64,000 nucleotides of DNA, taken from contig NZ_JAAAGB010000003.1 in assembly GCF_010586825.1 (NCBI RefSeq), forward strand, positions 62,001 to 126,000. Reading direction: 5' to 3'. The position numbers were made by a program, and so were the translations under genes. The stretch comes from Draconibacterium mangrovi. GTDB lineage: Bacteria; Bacteroidota; Bacteroidia; Bacteroidales; Prolixibacteraceae. How positions within the stretch are numbered: the stretch's first letter is position 1; each line of letters begins with the position of its first letter. The notes beneath the pieces were generated by a model. It was given only the letters and a program-made list of their open reading frames with translations. It ran no database searches and was not told the DNA's origin. This document shows positions 41,151 through 63,204 of this stretch, one piece after another.

Positions 41151-41163
41151 GGACATAAAAAAA

Positions 41164-41190
41164 GGGTTAAAACCGTCCTTGTTTTAACCC
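41164..41190 (-). terminator. Terminator of the three-peptide operon
   Basis: A perfect 10-bp stem (GGGTTAAAAC/GTTTTAACCC) with a 7-nt loop. On the minus strand TTTTTTTATG follows, so it ends the minus-strand peptide transcript rather than the plus-strand methyltransferase transcript. Confidence 0.93.
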
Positions 41191-41224
41191 CTGTACTAAC
41201 AACTCAATTGGTTCTGTATATAGG

Positions 41225-41368
41225 CTATTCTTCTTCAAAATCATAAATATCTTTATCTCTTGAATTTGGTGTTCCTCCACCTCTAACTTCATTTAGTTCT
41301 TCTTGAGATAGAACTTCAAAATCAAAATTGTCTGAATTGTATTGTGATATCATAGTTATAGCTTTCAT
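41225..41368 (-). CDS. GG-leader peptide, tandem copy 3 (promoter-distal)
   Basis: A 47-residue peptide that starts MKAITMISQY and has the leader pattern FEVLSQEELNEVRGG, followed by the 16-residue GTPNSRDKDIYDFEEE. Leaders of this LSxxELxxVxGG type mark secreted or modified natural-product precursors in Bacteroidota, where a peptidase cuts after GG. The C-terminal half is almost identical in all three copies while N-terminal parts vary. It is separated from copy 2 by 18 nt. An internal ATG at residue 6 is possible. No cysteine is present, so a simple lanthipeptide is unlikely. Function unknown. Confidence 0.8.
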   Translation of the reverse strand: MKAITMISQYNSDNFDFEVLSQEELNEVRGGGTPNSRDKDIYDFEEE

Positions 41369-41386
41369 TGTTTAAATTTTTTAGGC

Positions 41387-41524
41387 TTATTCTTCTTCGA
41401 AATCGTAAATATCTTTATCTCTTGATTTTGGTGTTCCTCCGCCGCGAACCTCGTTCATCGCGTCATTAGATAATACTTCAAAATCACTATTGCTCTCTGT
41501 GAAAAAATTTGCTATAACTTTCAT
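41387..41524 (-). CDS. GG-leader peptide, tandem copy 2
   Basis: A 45-residue peptide starting MKVIANFFTESN, with leader FEVLSNDAMNEVRGG and tail GTPKSRDKDIYDFEEE. It differs from copy 3 by Asn to Lys in the tail, and the nucleotide sequence shows synonymous differences (for example GATTTC versus GATTTT), which supports selection on protein. It is 37 nt from copy 1 and 18 nt from copy 3, so all three are one transcript. Codon differences argue against very recent duplication. Confidence 0.8.
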   Translation of the reverse strand: MKVIANFFTESNSDFEVLSNDAMNEVRGGGTPKSRDKDIYDFEEE

Positions 41525-41561
41525 ATCTTATAATCTTAACAGTAAATACTTTTTTTAATGA

Positions 41562-41705
41562 TTATTCATCAAAATCATAAATGTCTTTATCTCTTGAATT
41601 TGGAGTTCCACCACCACGAACTTCGCTCATTGCTTTTTCGTTGATTACTTCAAAACCAAAAACTTCGAAAGTATTTTCTGTTGATTCAAACTGTACTCTT
41701 TTCAT
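41562..41705 (-). CDS. GG-leader peptide, tandem copy 1 (promoter-proximal)
   Basis: A 47-residue peptide starting MKRVQFESTENTFEVFG, with leader FEVINEKAMSEVRGG and tail GTPNSRDKDIYDFDE. It lacks one Glu of the tail of the other copies. It is the first gene after the promoter region, about 95 nt from the divergent TPR-CHAT frame. The shared motif EVRGGGTPxSRDKDIYDF is the hallmark of the group. The peptide is acidic and has no signal sequence for the Sec pathway. Confidence 0.8.
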   Translation of the reverse strand: MKRVQFESTENTFEVFGFEVINEKAMSEVRGGGTPNSRDKDIYDFDE

Positions 41706-41769
41706 CGTATAATAAATTAATTCGTTAAACTTTTAAACACACATTCACTAATATATTCTGATAAGTAGA

Positions 41770-41781
41770 AAAAGGTAACCC
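41770..41781 (-). promoter_or_regulatory. Candidate sigma-recognition motif upstream of the peptide operon
   Basis: On the minus strand this reads GGGTTACCTTTT and is followed 12 nt later by AATATATTAG. The same 12-mer and the same AATATATTAG occur in the same orientation upstream of the ECF sigma gene at 46888-46899. It lies 65 nt before the first peptide ATG. The spacers to AATATATTAG differ by 3 nt, so the -10 partner is uncertain. Confidence 0.55.
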
Positions 41782-41784
41782 CCC

Positions 41785-41819
41785 TTTTTTGAAAAAAATT
41801 GAAAAAAGTTCTATTTTGG
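41785..41819 (+). promoter_or_regulatory. Possible promoter of the TPR-CHAT gene
   Basis: TTTTTTG ending at 41791 is followed, after 20 nt, by TATTTTGG (41812-41819), one mismatch from TAnnTTTG. It would start transcription near 41825, consistent with the ATG at 41841 and not with the TTG at 41799. Confidence 0.35.
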
Positions 41820-41840
41820 TGGAATAATTCACAACATCAG

Positions 41841-44732
41841 ATGACAATTTTCAAGCGGATAATCTTTGTTTTTTACCTACTATTCTTACCTAATTTTTTA
41901 CTTAGTCAAGAAGTCAACACAGACTCGTTAAGACTACTAACCAACAAGTTAGGACAAAATGGGGCCAGATTGGGCAACGAAGGTAAATACACTGAAGCTT
42001 TAGAGGCTTTTAAACTGTTTCTGCATGAACGAAAAAAAATTTACGGAGAAAAAGATTATTTTTTAACTCAGCCATATATGATGTTAGGTATTACCTACAA
42101 AAATTTAGGTGAAAACGATATGGCACTTAGAAGTTATGAGCTTGCTGAAACAAATTATTATTTGCGTTCAGACCCTCCGCAAGGTCTATTGGGAAGCATA
42201 TATTTAAATCTTGGCAATGTATATCGAGCCAAATTGGATTATAAAAATGCCATAACCTATTTTAGTCAAGCTTTAAACGTATACCAAAATCAAGATCCTA
42301 TTGATATTTATGATATTACAAATGCATATTATTCCATTGCGGAGGTTGAATTTGTTAGCAAAAACTACCAATCCGTTATTGACATTGCAGAAAAATGCTA
42401 TGCTTCGGCTGATACATCCAATCAAATATATTTTGATAACGTTATGGGAGGTAGTTACTATAACCTTAATGAAATCGAAAAAGCAGATTATCATTTTAAA
42501 CATGCCATTTCATTGTCAGAAGATTATTATGGTAAAGGTATAGACCTCGCCTACGCATACATGAGTTACGCAGAATTTCTTTCAGGTATAAATAATTTTG
42601 AAAAAGCAGTAGAAAATTTATCAGAAGCTTATAATATTTTAGAGTATTTCCAAAAAGATTTTGGCCCAGTACTCTCCAATTATTATGAATATGAAGGAAA
42701 TATTTACAGAAACCGTACAATAAAGACCCAGGAAATAAACCGGTTTAAAAGGGAAAAAAGGCAAAACCTACTCAAATCAATTGATTCCTACAAAAAAGGA
42801 CTAGCTGCATTGGAAGTAAGCCAAATTGATCCTGAAAGTTCCGATATTAAAATCCGACAAACACGTTCGCTAATGGATTGCCTTGACCTGATAAAAGCAA
42901 TTGGTGATGTATATCTTGAAATAGCCCTGCTTGATAATGAAAATAAAGGCATCGATTACAGCGAAAACCTTGATTATGCACTAAGCTGCTATAACAATAC
43001 GAGTAACCTTATTCAACAGGCGCGAAAAGAAATTTCAAACGATGAAAGTAAAATTCAGCTGTCGAACCTGCAATATCAGACTATAAGTAAAATTATTGAG
43101 ACAGCCTATCTTGCCTATAGTTATTCGGGAAATCAGGAATTCCTTGATATTGCTTTTAATAATTCAGAGCAACTAAAAAGTAGTGCGTTATTCGATAAAA
43201 TTGCCAATGAACTAGCGCAGGAAAATAGTTTAATCCCTGACAGCCTGCTGGAACTGGAGCGTAAATTAAATAATACTATTGCCAACTATTCCGAATTACA
43301 ATACGAGGAATTAAGCTACGATGAACCAGATAGTTCGTTATTGGACGAATTTAATGATAAGATTTTTAATGCATCGCGGCAAAGAGATGAGCTGAATCGG
43401 TTTATGGAAGAAAGTTACCCCGACTACTACCAATTAAAATATTCCAACTCGTCGCTTAGTTTAAATGAAATACAAGATAGGATTGACCGAAAGGAAGCAA
43501 TTGTTGAGTATTTTTTAGCTGAACCATCAACGGAAAACATTAAAAATAGTAGTGATGCCGATACATTAACTTCGTTGTATACGTTTTTTATTACCAACGA
43601 CAATATTGAATTTCACAAAAAAACGCTCGACAACGGAGAAATACAGGCTTTGGAAGAAACCTTTCGGTTTATTTCATCTACCGACTACATGTTTACACAC
43701 AACGAAGATGCAAAACAATACTGCGTTTCTTCGCACCGTTTATACAACATGCTGCTTGCCCCTTACGAGCAAGACATTACTGAAAAACACCTGACAATAA
43801 TACCTGACGGAAAACTAAATTACATTGCATTCGACGGACTATTAAAAACGCTGCCCGACACAAGTGAAACCATCCGTTTTAACGAATTGAACTATCTGGT
43901 AAAAGATGTAAATATTAACTACGCTAATTCGGTAAATATTTTCCTTAAAAACAAAGCTGCGAAACCCAAGCTGCGAAACCACACTCTGGCATTTGCTCCA
44001 GAATACAATTCGGAAGAATTCAAAATGACGGGAACAAGCTATAAACTTGCACCACTACCGGGCGTACAAAAAGAAGTTGATGATATAGCTAAATCAGTTA
44101 GTACTACTATTTTTAGAAGCAAAGATGCAACCGAGCAAAATTTCAGAGAAGAGAGTGGCAATTTTGATATTCTTCACCTGGCAATGCACGCGTACATAAA
44201 CGATTCGTTACCGGCGTATTCCCGTCTGGCATTTAGTCAAAATACAGATACAACGACTTTGGATAATGATGGCTGGCTAAATACCGCAGATATCTACAAT
44301 CTCGAATTAAATGCCAGCATGACGGTTCTAAGTGCATGTAACACAGGAGTTGGGAAACTTCAAAAAGGAGAAGGACTGATGAGTTTGGCAAGAGGTTTTT
44401 TATATGCCGGATGTCCATCGGTAATAATGTCGCTTTGGGAAGTTGAAGATGCTGCAGGCACAAAAATTATGACCTCCTTTTATAAATACTTAAAAGCAGG
44501 AAAAACAAAAGATGAAGCGCTTCGGCTTGCTAAACTGAAATACCTTGAAGAATCGAATTCAAGACTTGCTCACCCGCATTATTGGATGAGCTTTAAATGT
44601 ATTGGAGATAATTCTCCGGTATATACCAGTTATGATCTTTACTTTTTTGCAATTCTTATTCTTTTGATCATCGCTTTTTCAATCGACCAGGGAATTCGCA
44701 TAAAAAAAGCCCGTCGTAACCGACAGGCTTAA
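41841..44732 (+). CDS. Exported TPR-CHAT protease anchored by a C-terminal TM helix
   Basis: 963 aa from the ATG of MTIFKRIIFVF; the longer TTG frame lies in a likely promoter. A signal peptide (about 1-22) is followed by TPR repeats (about 25-450), a helical linker, and a CHAT domain (about 560-920). CHAT is a clan CD (caspase/separase-like) cysteine protease fold. The dyad is His783 in LHLAMHAYIN and Cys833 in LSACNTGVG, both conserved. A TM helix (about 935-955) and basic tail (KKARRNRQ) place the enzyme on the periplasmic face. It diverges from the peptide operon and faces the sigma/anti-sigma operon. Its substrate is unknown; the TPR array probably selects it. Confidence 0.95.
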   Translation: MTIFKRIIFVFYLLFLPNFLLSQEVNTDSLRLLTNKLGQNGARLGNEGKYTEALEAFKLFLHERKKIYGEKDYFLTQPYMMLGITYKNLGENDMALRSYELAETNYYLRSDPPQGLLGSIYLNLGNVYRAKLDYKNAITYFSQALNVYQNQDPIDIYDITNAYYSIAEVEFVSKNYQSVIDIAEKCYASADTSNQIYFDNVMGGSYYNLNEIEKADYHFKHAISLSEDYYGKGIDLAYAYMSYAEFLSGINNFEKAVENLSEAYNILEYFQKDFGPVLSNYYEYEGNIYRNRTIKTQEINRFKREKRQNLLKSIDSYKKGLAALEVSQIDPESSDIKIRQTRSLMDCLDLIKAIGDVYLEIALLDNENKGIDYSENLDYALSCYNNTSNLIQQARKEISNDESKIQLSNLQYQTISKIIETAYLAYSYSGNQEFLDIAFNNSEQLKSSALFDKIANELAQENSLIPDSLLELERKLNNTIANYSELQYEELSYDEPDSSLLDEFNDKIFNASRQRDELNRFMEESYPDYYQLKYSNSSLSLNEIQDRIDRKEAIVEYFLAEPSTENIKNSSDADTLTSLYTFFITNDNIEFHKKTLDNGEIQALEETFRFISSTDYMFTHNEDAKQYCVSSHRLYNMLLAPYEQDITEKHLTIIPDGKLNYIAFDGLLKTLPDTSETIRFNELNYLVKDVNINYANSVNIFLKNKAAKPKLRNHTLAFAPEYNSEEFKMTGTSYKLAPLPGVQKEVDDIAKSVSTTIFRSKDATEQNFREESGNFDILHLAMHAYINDSLPAYSRLAFSQNTDTTTLDNDGWLNTADIYNLELNASMTVLSACNTGVGKLQKGEGLMSLARGFLYAGCPSVIMSLWEVEDAAGTKIMTSFYKYLKAGKTKDEALRLAKLKYLEESNSRLAHPHYWMSFKCIGDNSPVYTSYDLYFFAILILLIIAFSIDQGIRIKKARRNRQA
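44707..44730 (-). terminator. Terminator of the sigma/anti-sigma-like operon
   Basis: AAGCC and GTCG pair with CGAC and GGCTT across one mismatch, with loop TAAC. On the minus strand TTTTTTTAT follows. It overlaps the 3' end of the convergent TPR-CHAT gene. Confidence 0.7.
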
Positions 44733-44779: not shown

Positions 44780-46288
44780 TTATTTGAAAGAGTACTTGAG
44801 CTTTCTTAGGATTGCCTTGGCATCTTTTTGGTAATGACCCTTACGATCAATAACTGCCAGCAATTCTTTCTTAGCCTCTGCTCTTTTATTCATTTTCAGG
44901 TAACAAAGTGCTTTATACCACTCGGCTTCCTCTATGAACATATTATTTCCGTGATCAATAACTTTAGTATACTCAGTTACCGCTTTCGGATATTTATTCA
45001 AATTCTGATAACTCAAACCTTTATAAAACTGCGGAACAAATTGCTCATCAGCTTTAACTGTTACATTATTCAGCAAATCAATAGTCTTTTGGTACTCATT
45101 CTGCTGAAAATACATTTGAGCCTGATGTATTACACTCACATCGCTGTCAACCGAACGTTCAGATGCCCAGGTTGTCGACTCAAAGTACTTGTCGTACGAA
45201 TTGTCCATTGTATTGGTATTCATTTGCATTGCACCAAGTAAACCTACCAATACCAAAACAACGGCTACGCTGCTGCGCCAGAATTTTGTGGTACCAATCT
45301 CTATACGAGGCATTATAATCGATTTCACCTCTTTCTTCTCGGATTCTTCTCTTGCGTCTTTTAGTTTCTGGCGTAAGCCCATGATATCCATCTCTGAGAC
45401 GGCAGAGTTTATATTCTCGCGAAGTGCCACTTCCGCCATCAGATCGGTATTTTCTTTTAATTCGGCACTGAATTCTTCTAATAAACTTTCCTCCAGTACT
45501 CCATCAATAAAGTCTTCAATGGCCTGTTCACTAACGTTCCACGATGTTTCAGACTCCATGATATTTCTCAATTCACTTCTCAGATCCATTACATCGGTTT
45601 CTGCAACAGCCATTTCAAGCTCTTTATGCAAACTAACTTCTGATTGTAACAGTTCATTTTGGTTCAACTCAACTTCAAATTCGGCCAAAATATCGTCACC
45701 CATTTCTCCCTCAAGATATGAGTCGATATCTTCAACTGAATACTGCGGTTCAACCGATTTTGCCACTTGCTGCAATGTTTCGCGCAAGTTCAGGATATCT
45801 GTTTCCAAAACAGCTTCTTCCAGGCCTTCCAGACCTTCCATATCAAAACCGTTCAGGTCATCTTCAATAACGACTTGCTCAGAACCGTTTTGCTCTTTGT
45901 AATAATGGTGAATGTTTTCGTTGCTGGTTCGTTCATGCTGATACACATGAACTTTTGGGAGCGATTCGAAACTTTCAATAAGTTCTTCGGGTGTTAACTC
46001 TGCAGTGGCTTCTTCAAATTCGCTGAAGTTGTCCAACAGCTCGAAAGAGCCATTTAACCTGCCATTTTTTGTACTGTTTGTTTGAATTTTTTCGAGTTTC
46101 CCTTTAAGATCAAGAATATCCATTTCCAAAACGGCTGACTGGATATTTTTGTGAAGTTCAACTTCATCTCTTAATTCCTGGTTTAATTCTAACTCTTTTT
46201 CAAATTCTTCTCTCTCTTGTTTGTTTAAAAGATCTAAACAGTAATCTTCAATGCGTCCAAATAATTCTGCTTTAGGTGTCATCTTCAA
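44780..46288 (-). CDS. Membrane protein with repeated anti-sigma-like modules and C-terminal TPRs
   Basis: 502 aa. Three similar helical modules (about 10-68, 184-243, 253-312) and one fragment (155-176) share the pattern EDY/DSY..L...EF..EL..N..L..EV.LH..I..AV.E.DI..LR..L. This resembles an anti-sigma cytoplasmic region repeated within one protein. A single TM helix (about 337-354) then leads to TPRs (about 385-500), which would be extracytoplasmic. The gene overlaps the sigma factor gene by 17 nt, as anti-sigma partners often do. No zinc-binding HxxxCxxC motif is present. Periplasmic TPRs could be a docking site for the neighbouring TPR-CHAT protease. Confidence 0.85.
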   Translation of the reverse strand: MKMTPKAELFGRIEDYCLDLLNKQEREEFEKELELNQELRDEVELHKNIQSAVLEMDILDLKGKLEKIQTNSTKNGRLNGSFELLDNFSEFEEATAELTPEELIESFESLPKVHVYQHERTSNENIHHYYKEQNGSEQVVIEDDLNGFDMEGLEGLEEAVLETDILNLRETLQQVAKSVEPQYSVEDIDSYLEGEMGDDILAEFEVELNQNELLQSEVSLHKELEMAVAETDVMDLRSELRNIMESETSWNVSEQAIEDFIDGVLEESLLEEFSAELKENTDLMAEVALRENINSAVSEMDIMGLRQKLKDAREESEKKEVKSIIMPRIEIGTTKFWRSSVAVVLVLVGLLGAMQMNTNTMDNSYDKYFESTTWASERSVDSDVSVIHQAQMYFQQNEYQKTIDLLNNVTVKADEQFVPQFYKGLSYQNLNKYPKAVTEYTKVIDHGNNMFIEEAEWYKALCYLKMNKRAEAKKELLAVIDRKGHYQKDAKAILRKLKYSFK

Positions 46289-46859
46289 GTATCTTTTTAA
46301 ATTCTGTATCTTGCTTAATGCGCTTTATCAACAGTTCTTTACATTTATACTTTCTTGTTTTAGCGTATTTTTCAGTTTTGTAGCCCATAATTCTCGCAAT
46401 TTCTTTTAGCGGGACCTTTTCAAAAAACATCTGTAATAGCTTCTGACAATCTGTACTCAAGGTTTTGAAATGCTTTTGATACAATCCGTATTTCTGGTTT
46501 TTATCGACCAATTCTACCAGGTTGTCATCGTAAACGTCTTCCTGGAACGGCAATGAATCGTTCAGCTTTTCTTTCTCAATCCGTCGTTTCTCTAATTGCT
46601 TTAACCACAAAAAACGACACACTGAGAATAAATATCCTTGAAAAGAACTCTTTTCGAAAATTAAATCGTTTTCTTTTAATTTCCTGTAAATTACGATAAT
46701 AGCTTCCTGAAAAACATCACTGGCATCGTCCTCACTTCCTTGGTTTTTCTTAATGAAATAATTTACTTTATAGTAGTACTGTTTGTATATGTACTGCAAA
46801 ATTAAATTATCGTGCCTTAAGATTCCTTTCAGGATTTGCGCATCCGTATAATTTATCAT
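46272..46859 (-). CDS. ECF-type RNA polymerase sigma factor
   Basis: 195 aa, a group 4 sigma factor. Region 2 (about 20-90) contains DASDVFQEAIIVIYRKL and FQGYLFSVCRFLWL; region 4 (about 125-185) has the HTH KEIARIMGYKTEKYAKTRKYKCKE. It recruits RNA polymerase to a small regulon. It is cotranscribed with the anti-sigma-like gene. The motif GGGTTACCTTTT lies about 30 nt upstream of its own ATG, which suggests autoregulation. Confidence 0.95.
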   Translation of the reverse strand: MINYTDAQILKGILRHDNLILQYIYKQYYYKVNYFIKKNQGSEDDASDVFQEAIIVIYRKLKENDLIFEKSSFQGYLFSVCRFLWLKQLEKRRIEKEKLNDSLPFQEDVYDDNLVELVDKNQKYGLYQKHFKTLSTDCQKLLQMFFEKVPLKEIARIMGYKTEKYAKTRKYKCKELLIKRIKQDTEFKKILEDDT

Positions 46860-46887
46860 CTTCTAATATATTATTCGATTATTGGTC

Positions 46888-46899
46888 AAAAGGTAACCC
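46888..46899 (-). promoter_or_regulatory. Candidate sigma-recognition motif upstream of the sigma gene
   Basis: On the minus strand this reads GGGTTACCTTTT. AATATATTAG follows 15 nt later and ends 3 nt before the ATG. The 12-mer is identical to that upstream of the three-peptide operon. Confidence 0.55.
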
Positions 46900-57839: not shown

Positions 57840-59927
57840 TTGATCTCATTTGGCATAAAATACTGGTTTATACTGTTGCTCTCCATCACCGTTGCATCGG
57901 TAGGTGTTGCAGTTTTACTTTACTACAAAAATAAAGCACTTAAAGAACTTTCGAAATTTCAGCGCAGCCTGTTAATAGCACTAAGGTTTCTGGCTTTCTT
58001 TCTTATTGCCTTTTTGCTTTTATCGCCTTTTATCCGAAACATGAAGAAGATTACTCAAAATCCTGTAATCATTGCTGCGTGGGATAATTCGGGATCGGTT
58101 GTATCGCATGCCGACTCCTTACAACTGGCCCAAACAATTAGCGATGAAAAAGCGCAGATAGAACGGCAATTGGAAGCCGATTTTGAGCTGGTGAGCTACA
58201 CTTTTGGCGAAGAAACCCAAAACGGTAACGATTTAAATTTTTCCGAAAAAGGATCGAACTACAGTGAATTAATTGCCACGATAACCAATAATCATTTTAA
58301 CCAAAACATCGGAGCGCTGATCGTTGCCGGAGACGGTATTTATAACCAGGGAAAAAATCCGCTCAACATGCTCGAACAGGTGAGCTTCCCGATTTACACC
58401 ATCGGACTTGGCGATACCACCGTAATTGCCGATGCCCGTGTTCAAAACATTCGCGTTAACCGCACGGCATTTTCGGGAAATAAATTTCCGGTTGAGGTGG
58501 ATCTGCTATTTTCGAAACTAAAAAACACGCCGCTTAAACTTTCGCTTTTGCAGGATGATGAAGAGTTACAAAGCGTGATGATCACCCCATCGAATGATAA
58601 CTATTTCGATACAAAAGAATTTGTTTTGGAGGCAGGTTCTGCAGGATTAAAACATTACACATTGCAGATTCAGGTTGCAGCCAACGAGCGAAATACCAAA
58701 AACAACAGCGCCGGTTTTGTGATCAACGTGCTGGAGAACAAACAAAAGATACTGATCATTTCCAATGGCTCACACCCCGATGTTGGTGCCATAAAAAATA
58801 CACTCGATCAGCAAAAAACATACGAGGTTTCGGTATTTACCGACGAACCTTATCCCAATGATCTGAGCGATTACAACCTGCTTATTTTAAACCAGCTGCC
58901 AAGTACCGGGAAGTCGATGGCCGAAGTCATGGAAAAAGCAGATAACAACCGTTTGCCGATCCTTTTTATCGTGGGAAACCAAACATTTTTACCGCAGCTG
59001 AATATTTTAAGCCCGGGAGCAAGCGTTGAACCACTGGCCGGAAGCGGAGAAGAAGCGCAACCGGTTTTTAATTCGAATTATGCAACGTTTAATTTGTCGG
59101 AAGAACTAATTGAAATTATTCCACAATTTCCTCCGGTACAGGTTCCGTTTGCCAATTACGAGTTGAATCCGGAATTCTCGCCACTGTTGTATCAAAAACT
59201 TAAAGGTATTACAACCGGAAAACCACTAATCGCCACCGGAAAACTGGAAGGCCGGAAACGAGGTTATATTTTCGGCGAAGGAATTTGGCGCTGGCGGCTG
59301 TTCGATTATTACCAAAACCAGGAACATACCCATTTTAACGAGTTGATCAATCAGATGGTACAATACCTTGCTTTGCGCGAAAACGAGGATAACTTTATTG
59401 TTGAATTCACCCCGGTTTACACCGAAGTAAATGACGTGGTTTTAACAGCCGAAGTATATAACGATGCTTTTGAGCGAATTGGTTCGGAAGAGGTAACCAT
59501 TAAATTGCAAAACGAAAACAACGAGGAATACAACCTGACTTTCGATGTGCAGGATAAAAATTATTACCTCAACGCGGGGCATTTGCCACTGGGCGATTAT
59601 ACGTTTACTGCCGAAGTAAGTATTGGTAACGAAACCTTTACCGAAACAGGCAGTTTTACAGTGGTTCCGGTTAATGTTGAGAATATTATTACGCAAGCCA
59701 ACCACACCCTGTTATACCAAATGGCCAACTTAAGCGGTGGAAAATTCTACCCGTCATCGCAAGCCAGCAATTTGGTTAACGAGCTGCAACAAACCAGTAA
59801 ATTAAAAGCAACAACATACTTTCAGGAGATGGTAAATCAACTCATAAACCTTCGTTGGTTATTTGTTGTTTTACTTGTGCTGTTAAGTACGGAATGGTTT
59901 TTGAGAAAGTACTGGGGAATTTACTAA
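57840..59927 (+). CDS. Membrane protein with von Willebrand A-like domain
   Basis: 695 aa from a TTG start; an in-frame stop at 57825 rules out earlier starts and no ATG follows in time. Two N-terminal TM helices (about 7-27, 40-60) are followed by a VWA-like region with the MIDAS-type DNSGS (about 81-85), then extended beta-rich regions and a C-terminal TM helix (about 665-685). Such proteins recur in Bacteroidota beside envelope genes. It precedes three related lipoprotein genes by 17 nt, so one operon is likely. Confidence 0.85.
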   Translation: MISFGIKYWFILLLSITVASVGVAVLLYYKNKALKELSKFQRSLLIALRFLAFFLIAFLLLSPFIRNMKKITQNPVIIAAWDNSGSVVSHADSLQLAQTISDEKAQIERQLEADFELVSYTFGEETQNGNDLNFSEKGSNYSELIATITNNHFNQNIGALIVAGDGIYNQGKNPLNMLEQVSFPIYTIGLGDTTVIADARVQNIRVNRTAFSGNKFPVEVDLLFSKLKNTPLKLSLLQDDEELQSVMITPSNDNYFDTKEFVLEAGSAGLKHYTLQIQVAANERNTKNNSAGFVINVLENKQKILIISNGSHPDVGAIKNTLDQQKTYEVSVFTDEPYPNDLSDYNLLILNQLPSTGKSMAEVMEKADNNRLPILFIVGNQTFLPQLNILSPGASVEPLAGSGEEAQPVFNSNYATFNLSEELIEIIPQFPPVQVPFANYELNPEFSPLLYQKLKGITTGKPLIATGKLEGRKRGYIFGEGIWRWRLFDYYQNQEHTHFNELINQMVQYLALRENEDNFIVEFTPVYTEVNDVVLTAEVYNDAFERIGSEEVTIKLQNENNEEYNLTFDVQDKNYYLNAGHLPLGDYTFTAEVSIGNETFTETGSFTVVPVNVENIITQANHTLLYQMANLSGGKFYPSSQASNLVNELQQTSKLKATTYFQEMVNQLINLRWLFVVLLVLLSTEWFLRKYWGIY

Positions 59928-59944
59928 ACAACATTCATTTTACG

Positions 59945-60997
59945 ATGAGCATTTTCAAACAAACAAATTACATACTACTTGTTAGCCTTGTTCTTTTGTC
60001 GTATGCTTGTAGCCCAACAAAGCGGATTATGGTTGAGTTTCCGCAAAAACCAAAAAACGAGATTTCGCAGGATATACAGAGCCTGCTTTTGGTTAACCGC
60101 ACTGTTGATGTTAGATACAACGATCTGCCCGCCGATTCGCTGCAAAAATTATTTTATCAAAAGGATTTTAAACTCGATACGACCATATACGACCTCACGG
60201 CAGTTGACACTTCGCTAAAAGCCTTGGGCGAATTACTTTTCGAATCCGGCAGGTTTGATTATGTAATTCCCGAAGACCGTTTCCTGAACGCCGAAAAAAA
60301 TGCATTCTTTGCCAGTTCAATGAGCTGGCAGGAGGCGAAGGAACTTTGCGACCTGTATCAAACCGATGCTGTTCTATCAATGGATCTGTTTAATACACAT
60401 GTGGCAACCGAACTCTCTGAAGAATCAGTTTTCGATCCGAATGAAGGATTTTTCAGAACGGCCGTTGGTGCAAAAATGGTTGTTGTTTACGACGCCCTGT
60501 TTCGTATTTACGATCCGCAACAGGAGAAAATTCTGGCACGCGAAGTATTTCAGGACACCCTGCTTTGGGAAAATTATGCACTGAGCATAAGAAATCTGTT
60601 CGAGGATTTTACACCCGTAAAACAAGCCCTTACTGAAGCCGGAATTGCCGTGGCACTTGATTTTTCGGAAACAATAAGTACCGGCTGGCAGAGTGAATAC
60701 CGGATAATATTTGATAAAGGAAGTACAACATTAAAAGAAACAGCCATACTTACCGATAGCGGAGATTGGGCAACAGCCATTGAAGCATGGCAAAAAATTG
60801 CCGCCGAATCGGGATCGAAAAGCGAAAAAAGCAAAGCATTATTTAATCTCGCCACCGCTTGCGAAATACAGGGAGATATCGACTGTGCGATACAATATGC
60901 ACTCGAATCGTATAATACAGCCTACCACCCCATCACTTATCAGTACCTCGAATTGCTTAAAAGCAAGAAAAAACAACCGAAAAACAACTTGAAATGA
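59945..60997 (+). CDS. DUF6340-like lipoprotein, tandem copy A
   Basis: 350 aa from MSIFKQTNYIL. The lipobox is LLSYACSP (Cys about 21). Mid-region features shared with copies B and C are the DxxLS segment (TDAVLSMDL), a W..Y.P-like second strand region, and a C-terminal pair of TPR-like helices (WATAIEAWQKIA, KALFNLATACEIQGD). The family lacks a known function. The last 4 nt overlap copy B. Confidence 0.8.
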   Translation: MSIFKQTNYILLVSLVLLSYACSPTKRIMVEFPQKPKNEISQDIQSLLLVNRTVDVRYNDLPADSLQKLFYQKDFKLDTTIYDLTAVDTSLKALGELLFESGRFDYVIPEDRFLNAEKNAFFASSMSWQEAKELCDLYQTDAVLSMDLFNTHVATELSEESVFDPNEGFFRTAVGAKMVVVYDALFRIYDPQQEKILAREVFQDTLLWENYALSIRNLFEDFTPVKQALTEAGIAVALDFSETISTGWQSEYRIIFDKGSTTLKETAILTDSGDWATAIEAWQKIAAESGSKSEKSKALFNLATACEIQGDIDCAIQYALESYNTAYHPITYQYLELLKSKKKQPKNNLK

Positions 60998-62013
60998 ACC
61001 GATTAATCTCATGGACTTTACTACTACTAAGCACGGTATCGTGCACCGTTTATAAAGATTACCCCATAGAAATTTATACACCCGGAGAAATTGCTTATCC
61101 GGCAAATGCAGAAAATGTAGCTATTGTTTACAGGAATTTCAAATACAGCAATGACACGCTGGTTCACTATTATCAAGACGATTTCCGCCTGAAAAAAGCC
61201 AGGAACGATCCGAAAAACCTCGACAGTATTTTGGTAAATATGTGCATGAGCGAACTGGCAGGGAAATTAAAAGAAAAAAATACGTTTAAAGAAATAAGAA
61301 TAATTCCCGAACTTTTCGAACCACATACGGGCGACAAACTTCCGGCATTAAATATGGAGATGGTTCAGCAACTCGCCCGGAAAACCAATACCGACCTGGT
61401 AATTTCGCTGGAGACCTATTCCAGTTTTTACTCCGAATATTCAACAACGGCCGAAATGCCAACAAAATCAAACGAAGTGATAACCGCCGCTGTCTGGGCC
61501 GTATACAGTCCTTTCGAACAGCGACTGATTGAGCGCAAAACAATGATCGATACCATTTTCTGGAACGGTTACGATGCAAACGGGAATTATAATCGGAAAG
61601 CCAAGTTGCCACCGCGTATCACTGCGCTGAAGATTGCTTCGCAAATGGTTGGCGAAAATTATTCAAAACGCTTTTTTGCCTCGTGGGAAAATGTGAACAG
61701 GATGTATTCTGTTCCGCCATTACCCGACTTTGCCATGGCCGACGAATACGTACAAAAAGGCGATTGGGACAATGCCATTATGCTTTGGAAACGTTATGCC
61801 GACGACAGTAACGGTAAAATGGCCATTAACGCACGATACAATCTGGCACTGGGTTACGAGATGAAAGACGATTTTGAAATGGCCGAAAAATGGTTAAATG
61901 CAGCCTTCCAAATTGCCACCGCCTACAACAGCAAGGAAGAACTGAAAATGATTTTTCAATACCGGCAGTTACTTGCTAAAAGAAAAAAAGATATCTTGCG
62001 TTTAAACCAATAG
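60994..62013 (+). CDS. DUF6340-like lipoprotein, tandem copy B
   Basis: 339 aa. Lipobox LLSTVSCTV (Cys about 14). It shares the layout of copy A: TDLVISLETYSSF in the middle, WAVYSPFEQRLIERK, then FMADEYVQKGDWDNAIMLW-type helices (GDWDNAIMLWKRYADD, INARYNLALGYEMKDD). The start overlaps the stop of copy A. Sequence divergence between copies is large, so the duplication is old. Confidence 0.82.
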   Translation: MNRLISWTLLLLSTVSCTVYKDYPIEIYTPGEIAYPANAENVAIVYRNFKYSNDTLVHYYQDDFRLKKARNDPKNLDSILVNMCMSELAGKLKEKNTFKEIRIIPELFEPHTGDKLPALNMEMVQQLARKTNTDLVISLETYSSFYSEYSTTAEMPTKSNEVITAAVWAVYSPFEQRLIERKTMIDTIFWNGYDANGNYNRKAKLPPRITALKIASQMVGENYSKRFFASWENVNRMYSVPPLPDFAMADEYVQKGDWDNAIMLWKRYADDSNGKMAINARYNLALGYEMKDDFEMAEKWLNAAFQIATAYNSKEELKMIFQYRQLLAKRKKDILRLNQ

Positions 62014-62016
62014 CAA

Positions 62017-63204
62017 ATGAAGAACCGTGCTGTTTTTTTGTTGGGCGTTTTAACACTTTTTGTTTTAGCAAGTTGTAATACGCTGTACAATACAAAAACC
62101 ATTGATATTGAAATTGTTGAACCTTCAACAATGACTATCGCGCCGAAATTCAAAAATATTGCGATCCAGTACAATAACGTTAATTGCTCGCCAAACGAGT
62201 ACTTAAACCAGTACGAAGAATTTGGGACGCAAAAAACAGAAAACGAAAACTCGGATAGTATTGCCTCGCATGTTTATTTCGAAAACTTTATTTCGGAGCT
62301 TAACAACCAGGCATTTTTCGATACCGTAATTACCTTAAACGAGCGTAATTATTCAACCATCCGAATTGTTGACACAATTGATTATACACCTTATTTTCGC
62401 GAAGATTCGGCCACCCGTGTATCAATGACGGCTGAACAGATTAATGTATTGAATTCGGGCTATTTTCTGCAGGCCAATACATCGTCGGTTCGTCCGAAAA
62501 GCGATACGCTGATTATACATCCGCAATTCGGGTTATATAGACCTGATCAACTCGAAAATATTCGGAATAACACCGGTACCGACCTCTTACTTTCGCTCGA
62601 TTATTTTGGAGCCAGCGATGGACGCTACTACCATCGTGAGCTTGAAATTGGCAGCGAACAGGCGATCAACTGGACACAATGGAGCTTTTATGACCTTATT
62701 GACATGAAATATTTGTTGGCCTATTCGAAACTCGACACGGTGAAGTGGATGGAGTACTCCCCGGGCATTAAGAACGCGGATGACGTTTTACCTCCGCGAA
62801 CCGATGCCATATACAATGCAGCCGAAATATCAGCTGAAAATTTTGCGCTAACAATTGTCCCTCATTGGGTGCAGGTACAACGAATGTACTACTCCTCGGG
62901 GCATGTGGAACTGCAGCAAGCCGATGAGCTTATTCAGAATGCCCAGTGGTTGGATGTGGCCGAATTGTGGCGCAAACAGCTTTATAACAAGAACAAGAAA
63001 ATTGTTGCAAAATGTATGTATAATCTTGGTTTGGCTTGTGAAATGGGAGGAGATCTTGAGGCAGCTTTGGCCTGGGTGGTAAAATCGTATCATATTTTCG
63101 GCCCCAAGAATGAACTTCATGCAGAAAATTGTATGGAATACATCAGGCTGCTGAGTACCCGGCAAGCCGATATGAAACTTCTGGAGAAACAATTTGGCCG
63201 GTAG
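62017..63204 (+). CDS. DUF6340-like lipoprotein, tandem copy C
   Basis: 395 aa. Lipobox LASCNT (Cys about 19). It is the longest copy, with an insert near residues 100-160 and the family TDLLLSLDYFGAS. The helical C terminus has WLDVAELWRKQL and MYNLGLACEMGGDLEAALAW. It starts 3 nt after copy B and is the last gene before the 42-bp array. Confidence 0.82.
   Translation: MKNRAVFLLGVLTLFVLASCNTLYNTKTIDIEIVEPSTMTIAPKFKNIAIQYNNVNCSPNEYLNQYEEFGTQKTENENSDSIASHVYFENFISELNNQAFFDTVITLNERNYSTIRIVDTIDYTPYFREDSATRVSMTAEQINVLNSGYFLQANTSSVRPKSDTLIIHPQFGLYRPDQLENIRNNTGTDLLLSLDYFGASDGRYYHRELEIGSEQAINWTQWSFYDLIDMKYLLAYSKLDTVKWMEYSPGIKNADDVLPPRTDAIYNAAEISAENFALTIVPHWVQVQRMYYSSGHVELQQADELIQNAQWLDVAELWRKQLYNKNKKIVAKCMYNLGLACEMGGDLEAALAWVVKSYHIFGPKNELHAENCMEYIRLLSTRQADMKLLEKQFGR

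Follow-up and report, generated by a model that had tools for sequence, protein, structure and literature searches.

In the type III-E CRISPR system called Craspase or CASP, which comprises Cas7-11, the tetratricopeptide-repeat (TPR) CHAT protein Csx29, Csx30 and CASP-sigma, Csx29 cleaves Csx30, an inhibitor of the extracytoplasmic function (ECF) factor CASP-sigma, and sigma sites lie within the system's own locus, according to the available part of its description (PMC10028731). Here, we report a locus in a 64,000-nucleotide stretch of the Draconibacterium mangrovi genome (contig NZ_JAAAGB010000003.1, positions 62,001 to 126,000; hereafter the window) that encodes three short peptides with double-glycine (GG) leaders, an exported TPR-CHAT protein, an ECF sigma factor and a TPR membrane protein. 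Comparison across genomes gives good support to the view that these genes form one conserved unit, whose logic appears to resemble that of Craspase and of the DegS–RseA pathway, without CRISPR. As in the accessible account of Craspase, a TPR-CHAT protease lies beside an ECF sigma gene and a sigma inhibitor, the latter putative here (PMC10028731), and the CHAT protein belongs with the TPR-CHAT proteins that have a His–Cys dyad (PF12770 at E = 9e-58, plus TPRs; both residues conserved without exception in 44 relatives). In contrast to Craspase, however, the protease is predicted to be exported and membrane-anchored, and its constant partner is a GG-leader peptide. The window contains no open reading frame (ORF) of Cas7-11 size, the longest being a sensor kinase of 1119 residues; this check covered the ORFs of the window only, not CRISPR repeats. 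A PADLOC scan of four unit proteins returned one TPR model only.

DegS, the protease of the DegS–RseA pathway, is activated by peptides. That pathway pairs an extracytoplasmic protease with a single-pass anti-sigma factor and the ECF factor sigma E, an arrangement like the one proposed below. The Craspase description cites a reference titled for the activation of DegS by outer-membrane protein peptides (PMC10028731). The protease here is caspase-like, whereas DegS is a serine protease, and the peptide here would be a dedicated exported gene product whose gene carries the promoter motif of the sigma operon. ECF54-type sigma genes also have CHAT or other peptidase neighbours, and control by proteolysis has been proposed for them; this likeness is one of context, and the available portion of that description has them working without an anti-sigma factor and mentions no peptide (PMC8999054). 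Dma, an anti-sigma protein of Bacteroidota that pairs with an ECF sigma factor, likewise has one membrane helix but carries a disordered tether and a beta-barrel in place of the TPRs of our protein, and neither CHAT nor TPR turned up as a word in its description. A survey of Bacteroidales clusters for ribosomally synthesized, post-translationally modified peptides contains neither TPR nor sigma in its accessible part, where CHAT occurs as an author's name (PMC10352776). Among the open-licence papers listed, none was found to describe the combination of peptide, CHAT, sigma and TPR genes, which is not proof of absence.

The first-pass annotation of this DNA had described three adjacent GG-leader peptides of 45–47 residues, divergent from an exported TPR-CHAT gene, and ORFs and profiles confirm this (Table 1). 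It overlooked half of the unit: the ECF sigma factor, the TPR membrane protein and the shared promoter. The sigma and TPR genes lie downstream of the CHAT gene and face it; they are co-directional and overlap at 46272–46288, and the sigma factor matches TIGR02937 at 51 bits (cut-off 42.9). Together with the promoter motif described below, this layout is that of an ECF sigma/anti-sigma pair under a promoter of the autoregulated type. To follow the unit, we used samples of 140 genomes of the family, 37 of the genus, 295 of the order and 296 of the phylum. A CHAT match at E 1e-30 is present in 106 of the 140 family genomes, and by hand count in 59 of the 62 that have a peptide match (E <= 0.01); in the remaining three (G021, G025 and G079) the contig ends less than about 600 bases from the peptide on the CHAT side. 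The co-occurrence expected in the annotation is thus borne out, and peptide homologues mostly without CHAT, the outcome it named as contrary, were not observed.

The linkage is also tight at the level of loci. Where 300 bp or more of upstream DNA is available, 79 of 79 CHAT loci on the family stretches have a GG-peptide ORF at a threshold of 10 bits (78 at 14 bits, 77 at 18 bits), and peptide-profile matches are roughly 200 times denser upstream of CHAT than elsewhere on the same stretches. The figure of 79/79 is partly circular, because family peptides served to train the profile and it was a peptide match that brought many of the stretches into the set. A fairer test is provided by 12 loci fetched through CHAT and having no peptide match below E 0.02 (L115–L126), all 12 of which have a GG ORF, L116 being read by eye. 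A second fairer test is given by loci of other families of the order, which carry a peptide in 24 of 38 cases at 10 bits (21 at 14 bits, 15 at 18 bits). Among loci flanked by 4.2 kb in each direction, 34/36 in the family and 22/26 in the order have both sigma and TPR genes. The named relatives are Draconibacterium (three loci). The CHAT lineage occurs in 125/295 order-sample genomes at E 1e-60 and in 7/296 phylum-sample genomes at E 1e-150, the source genome counted, two frequencies that are not directly comparable because the thresholds differ.

Unrelated genes might also be held together beside RlmL by vertical descent alone, and RlmL does adjoin most same-genus loci. The peptide–CHAT link is kept in other gene orders and in loci without RlmL on the stretch (L040, L050, L051, L055, L056 and L087), a single duplicated block contains both the peptide and the TPR gene in L050, L051, L080 and L100, and a promoter motif is common to peptide and sigma genes; mere conserved synteny is therefore extremely improbable, and RlmL synteny alone was rejected.

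That the peptide genes and the sigma operon have a common promoter motif is well supported. Upstream alignments place the same element, GGTTACCTTTT, about 11 bases and GAATA, before the first peptide gene and the sigma gene. The pattern GGTTACCTTT-N10-14-GAATA has three sites in the source genome (one ahead of the peptide genes, one ahead of the sigma gene and one elsewhere) and none when read backwards. A stricter pattern occurs in 33 of the 37 genus genomes, exactly twice in 20 of those, and its reversed control in none of the 37; by hand count, it is present in 31/31 genus genomes with CHAT and 2/6 without. On family stretches, the full motif lies upstream of 60/82 first peptides and 20/70 sigma genes and of no TPR (0/75), CHAT (0/88), RlmL (0/50) or other gene (0/412), and the bare core GGTTACC precedes 62/82 first peptides, 33/70 sigma, 0/75 TPR, 9/88 CHAT, 5/50 RlmL and 2/412 other genes. 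The unit's own sigma factor probably drives the peptide genes. A genus that we label g9 has no such motif; there, GGTAACA..CCTATTAA stands by eye before 9/9 peptides examined and was not seen before the sigma genes.

Extra copies of the motif outside the unit could have marked a wider regulon, and no clear gene set emerged among the ten loci examined. Extra copies in L137, L139, L142, L151 and L166 precede a stretch without a clear ORF, possibly a small RNA; the copy of this kind in the source genome (L211:3023) points toward an argS-like gene on the opposite strand. In three loci (L150, L158 and L162), the extra copy is upstream of a similar ORF of 122–153 residues with SYLPxAFPAxxYGMPNG.

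All three peptides end in EVRGGGTPxSRDKDIYDF, the second half of each being near-invariant, and they are the sole good matches in the 5.9 Mb genome, the fourth match having an E value of 0.99. The ratio of non-synonymous (dN) to synonymous (dS) change is as expected of coding genes, with dN < dS in 18/18 ortholog comparisons. Exporters of the C39-peptidase ABC type recognize hydrophobic residues of the leader at -4, -7 and -12 together with GG. Each of these three positions is hydrophobic in all 94 family peptides whose core could be read, a set selected with a profile of these very peptides, and Glu is at -8 in 78 of them; the assignment of GG-type leaders in the first-pass annotation is therefore supported. 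The 94 cores exclude peptides of at least 70 residues (most of those of g9), every peptide from the order loci and, out of 95, one whose core could not be read; a few are shortened by contig ends.

The cores are short (median 16 residues) and mostly acidic (net negative in 85/94), and they diverge strongly between many genera. Copies within a genome are another matter. Among 44 peptides of 15 same-genus genomes (the third copy of G068, with an in-frame stop, was left out), core identity is 96% between copies of one genome against 76% between genomes at the same slot, and none of 10,000 permutations reached the observed within-genome value; for the leaders, the corresponding values are 46% and 68%. 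Since the core is alike and the leader is not, the copies are held alike mainly in the part expected outside the cell, as if serving one common partner. Core DNA identity is 91% within and 84% between genomes, and silent differences thus persist between copies, the DNA being less alike than the protein; gene conversion alone is a possible contributor to core likeness. A peptide at L105:7383-7544 has a tandemly repeated core, with GKSEDVYVPLN twice, which points to the core as the functional unit.

Class II bacteriocins typically have GG leaders and peptidase-containing exporters, which raises the alternative that the peptides are antimicrobials and that the CHAT and sigma genes serve regulation or self-protection. 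The peptides do give weak matches to bacteriocin leader families, the best at E 0.018, all below threshold, and no family passes its cut-off; for TIGR04149, the radical S-adenosylmethionine-modified GG peptides, peptide 1 scores 13.7 bits against a cut-off of 25, and peptides 2 and 3 are unmatched. Bacteroidetocins are likewise GG-leader peptides of Bacteroidota that go with an ABC exporter containing a peptidase, but they carry two or more Cys residues in the available part of their description (PMC6671954), whereas Cys occurs in 0/94 family cores, and the partners here are CHAT, sigma and TPR genes. Together with the net negative charge, the likeness of cores within a genome and the promoter shared with sigma, which fit a ligand better, this composition leaves the antimicrobial explanation improbable.

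From the tight peptide–CHAT linkage, the annotation had suggested that the peptides are substrates, activators or products of the protease. The linkage itself held in the genome and locus counts given above, and it would suit peptides that are substrates or processed products, for example ones matured by CHAT after export. An SRDKD or TRDKD stretch recurs in same-genus cores and would offer a site to an Arg-specific protease. As a general account this part did not stand: cores differ strongly between many genera, 32/94 lack Arg (which led us to reject an Arg-cut peptide substrate in general) and 8/94 lack both Arg and Lys, and removal of the leader can be explained by C39 exporters. We consider a substrate or product role to have a low probability.

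The first codon of the CHAT ORF is a TTG (41799), and no ATG occurs before 41841. Numbered from the codon at 41838, H780, H784, C834 and D871 are invariant in 44/44 aligned relatives, and the invariant His and Cys are candidate catalytic residues. By a simple hydropathy threshold, all 44 relatives have a C-terminal membrane segment and 35 an N-terminal hydrophobic one. Conservation is uneven along the protein: against three other Draconibacterium, residues 1–160 are only 51–57% identical, making this the fastest-evolving part, and 10 of the 12 40-residue windows across residues 481–960 show at least 90% identity. Among PDB sequences, a CHAT-domain profile of the family had five matches to E 10, the best being 8rot ('CHAT domain-containing protein', E 0.018), with separases at E 1.8–2.1; Csx29 was not retrieved. 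In two loci (L049:6549-9144 and L071:7142-10033), the CHAT gene is split in two, through a frameshift or an assembly error.

The TPR membrane protein (502 residues) has N-terminal repeats, seen by eye, one membrane segment at about residues 335–354 and C-terminal TPRs. An internal membrane segment is found in 28/28 relatives, of which L046 has a second, at the N terminus, and the anti-sigma model NF052375 matches 15 of the 28 at E <= 0.01. We infer that this protein is an anti-sigma factor. Its N-terminal repeats would lie inside the cytoplasm and its C-terminal TPRs outside, on the same side as the CHAT domain, which would also be outside the cytoplasm.

With the sigma and TPR genes and the common promoter motif taken into account, the locus looks more like a signalling circuit than a protease–substrate pair. 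The reading that we favour, at about an even level of confidence, is a transmembrane signalling unit in which an exported peptide gates the CHAT protease, the anti-sigma factor is cut and sigma is freed. A C39-peptidase ABC exporter would cut the leader after GG and send the core of about 16 residues out of the cytoplasm. The core would gate proteolysis by binding either the TPR half of CHAT, which evolves fast, or the anti-sigma TPRs; it could activate, or inhibit instead. The CHAT protease would then cut the anti-sigma protein outside the cytoplasm, and the freed sigma factor would transcribe its own operon and more peptide, making a self-reinforcing peptide circuit.

Several observations weigh against this proposal. 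Cleavage of the anti-sigma protein by CHAT and the role of the peptide are inferences only. Peptides were not found at 10 bits at 14 of the 38 order loci, one of which (L205) was recovered by eye. The full motif is absent before 22/82 family peptides and 50/70 family sigma genes, and in other families of the order it precedes 0/24 peptides and 0/32 sigma genes. The TPR protein matches NF052375 weakly, at 24.7 bits against a cut-off of 100. An Arg lies 14–37 residues past the membrane segment in 88/89 TPR relatives, followed by Ser, Gly or Ala in 73/88, but this is only suggestive because Arg frequency alone would give about 68% by hand estimate; as a cleavage site, it was kept merely as a weak lead. 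Exporters provide two further points: a C39 match occurs in 125/140 family genomes, so that the presence of such an exporter says little, and the orphan exporter of the source genome, described below, does not have its closest relative in the g9 exporter.

The unit and promoter data fit equally well with negative feedback, in which a sigma-driven peptide, as inhibitor or decoy, would shut the CHAT protease down again and so yield a pulse rather than self-amplification. Short acidic cores could fill a TPR groove or the active site; in our judgement, however, export of a leader-borne peptide to inhibit the cell's own protease would be unusual, and we regard this alternative as unlikely.

The favoured signalling reading calls for an exporter. 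The first-pass annotation reported no peptidase-containing exporter in the window, which holds for ORFs of at least 150 residues judged by eye; two full-length C39-peptidase ABC transporters are encoded elsewhere in the source genome. One belongs to a cluster with Cys-containing GG ORFs, described below; the other, accompanied by an HlyD-like gene and located next to rpsL, is an orphan. D. orientale and a genome of genus g2 have the orphan pair at the equivalent position (three genomes, two genera; L209:7790-11304, L212:7144-10655 and L213:3405-6989), near what we take, by recognizing the sequences, to be rpsL–rpsG–fusA. No peptide-profile match was found near it in the source genome or D. orientale, and the g2 genome has one weak match there, inside another gene. 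In genus g9, an exporter adjoins the peptide in 10/10 loci examined by sequence pattern (L094 and L127 left out), with domains confirmed for L121; one g9 locus, L088, has no CHAT on its contig. At five loci of other families, a C39 exporter is in the same cluster, adjoining the peptide in L193, L203 and L205. The idea that the orphan exporter had simply moved into the g9 CHAT locus was not supported: g9 exporters are 68–72% identical to the exporter of the source genome's Cys-containing peptide cluster and 56–58% to the orphan.

That cluster, at L210:2425-11452 on contig C24 of the source genome, combines a C39-peptidase exporter with four Cys-containing GG-leader-like ORFs and is bacteriocin-like. 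An ATP-grasp maturase is encoded near exporter and peptide in g9 loci (L040:1554-2480, L056:2414-3340 and others); it is MvdC-like at E ~1e-25, below the curated cut-off, and the g9 peptides may be graspetide-like. This enzyme has matches in 13/140 family genomes, 10 of them of genus g9. Graspetide maturation in the source genome was discarded, no match to the g9 enzyme being found there at E 1e-8.

The features of the locus are collected in Table 1. The terminator shared by the peptide genes had been called strong: a 12-pair hairpin with a T run is present, but 'strong' is generous, because the terminator scan gave 5 terminator-like sites against 3.7 in shuffles and the hairpin has a fold z-score of -1.35. 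Elsewhere in the window, at 59855-63204, three neighbouring genes are similar by eye, the first being DUF6340.

Table 1. Features of the peptide–CHAT–sigma locus, in window positions.
Feature	Position	Strand	Basis
Terminator-like hairpin, 12 pairs and T run, after peptide 1	41162..41192	minus	Terminator scan, folding
GG-leader peptide 1, 47 aa	41225..41368	minus	ORF, profile match, dN/dS
GG-leader peptide 2, 45 aa	41387..41524	minus	ORF, profile match, dN/dS
GG-leader peptide 3, 47 aa, nearest the shared promoter	41562..41705	minus	ORF, profile match, dN/dS
ECF-like promoter motif GGTTACC..GAATA, before peptide genes	41754..41780	minus	Upstream alignment, motif counts
Exported TPR-CHAT protein: signal-peptide-like N terminus, TPRs, CHAT, C-terminal membrane segment	41841..44732	plus	PF12770, alignment
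Terminator-like hairpin after sigma–TPR genes	44707..44730	minus	Terminator scan, such sites not clearly more frequent than in shuffles
TPR membrane protein with weak anti-sigma likeness	44780..46288	minus	Profile scans, hydropathy
ECF sigma factor, overlaps TPR gene	46272..46859	minus	TIGR02937
ECF-like promoter motif before sigma operon, same as that of the peptides	46872..46898	minus	Upstream alignment, motif counts

More broadly, and tentatively, since we think it rather less probable than not, the unit may be a Gram-negative peptide-pheromone circuit spread through one Bacteroidota order, with a caspase-like protease that is anchored in the membrane, cuts an anti-sigma factor and is gated by an exported peptide of the cell's own; it would be a CRISPR-free relative of Craspase in logic, perhaps in ancestry, with specificity maintained by concerted evolution of the cores. 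In our judgement, trigger and substrate are known for few bacterial CHAT proteases. This unit offers a candidate for each in a single locus conserved across many genera, and supplies in addition a predicted promoter for the output of the circuit.

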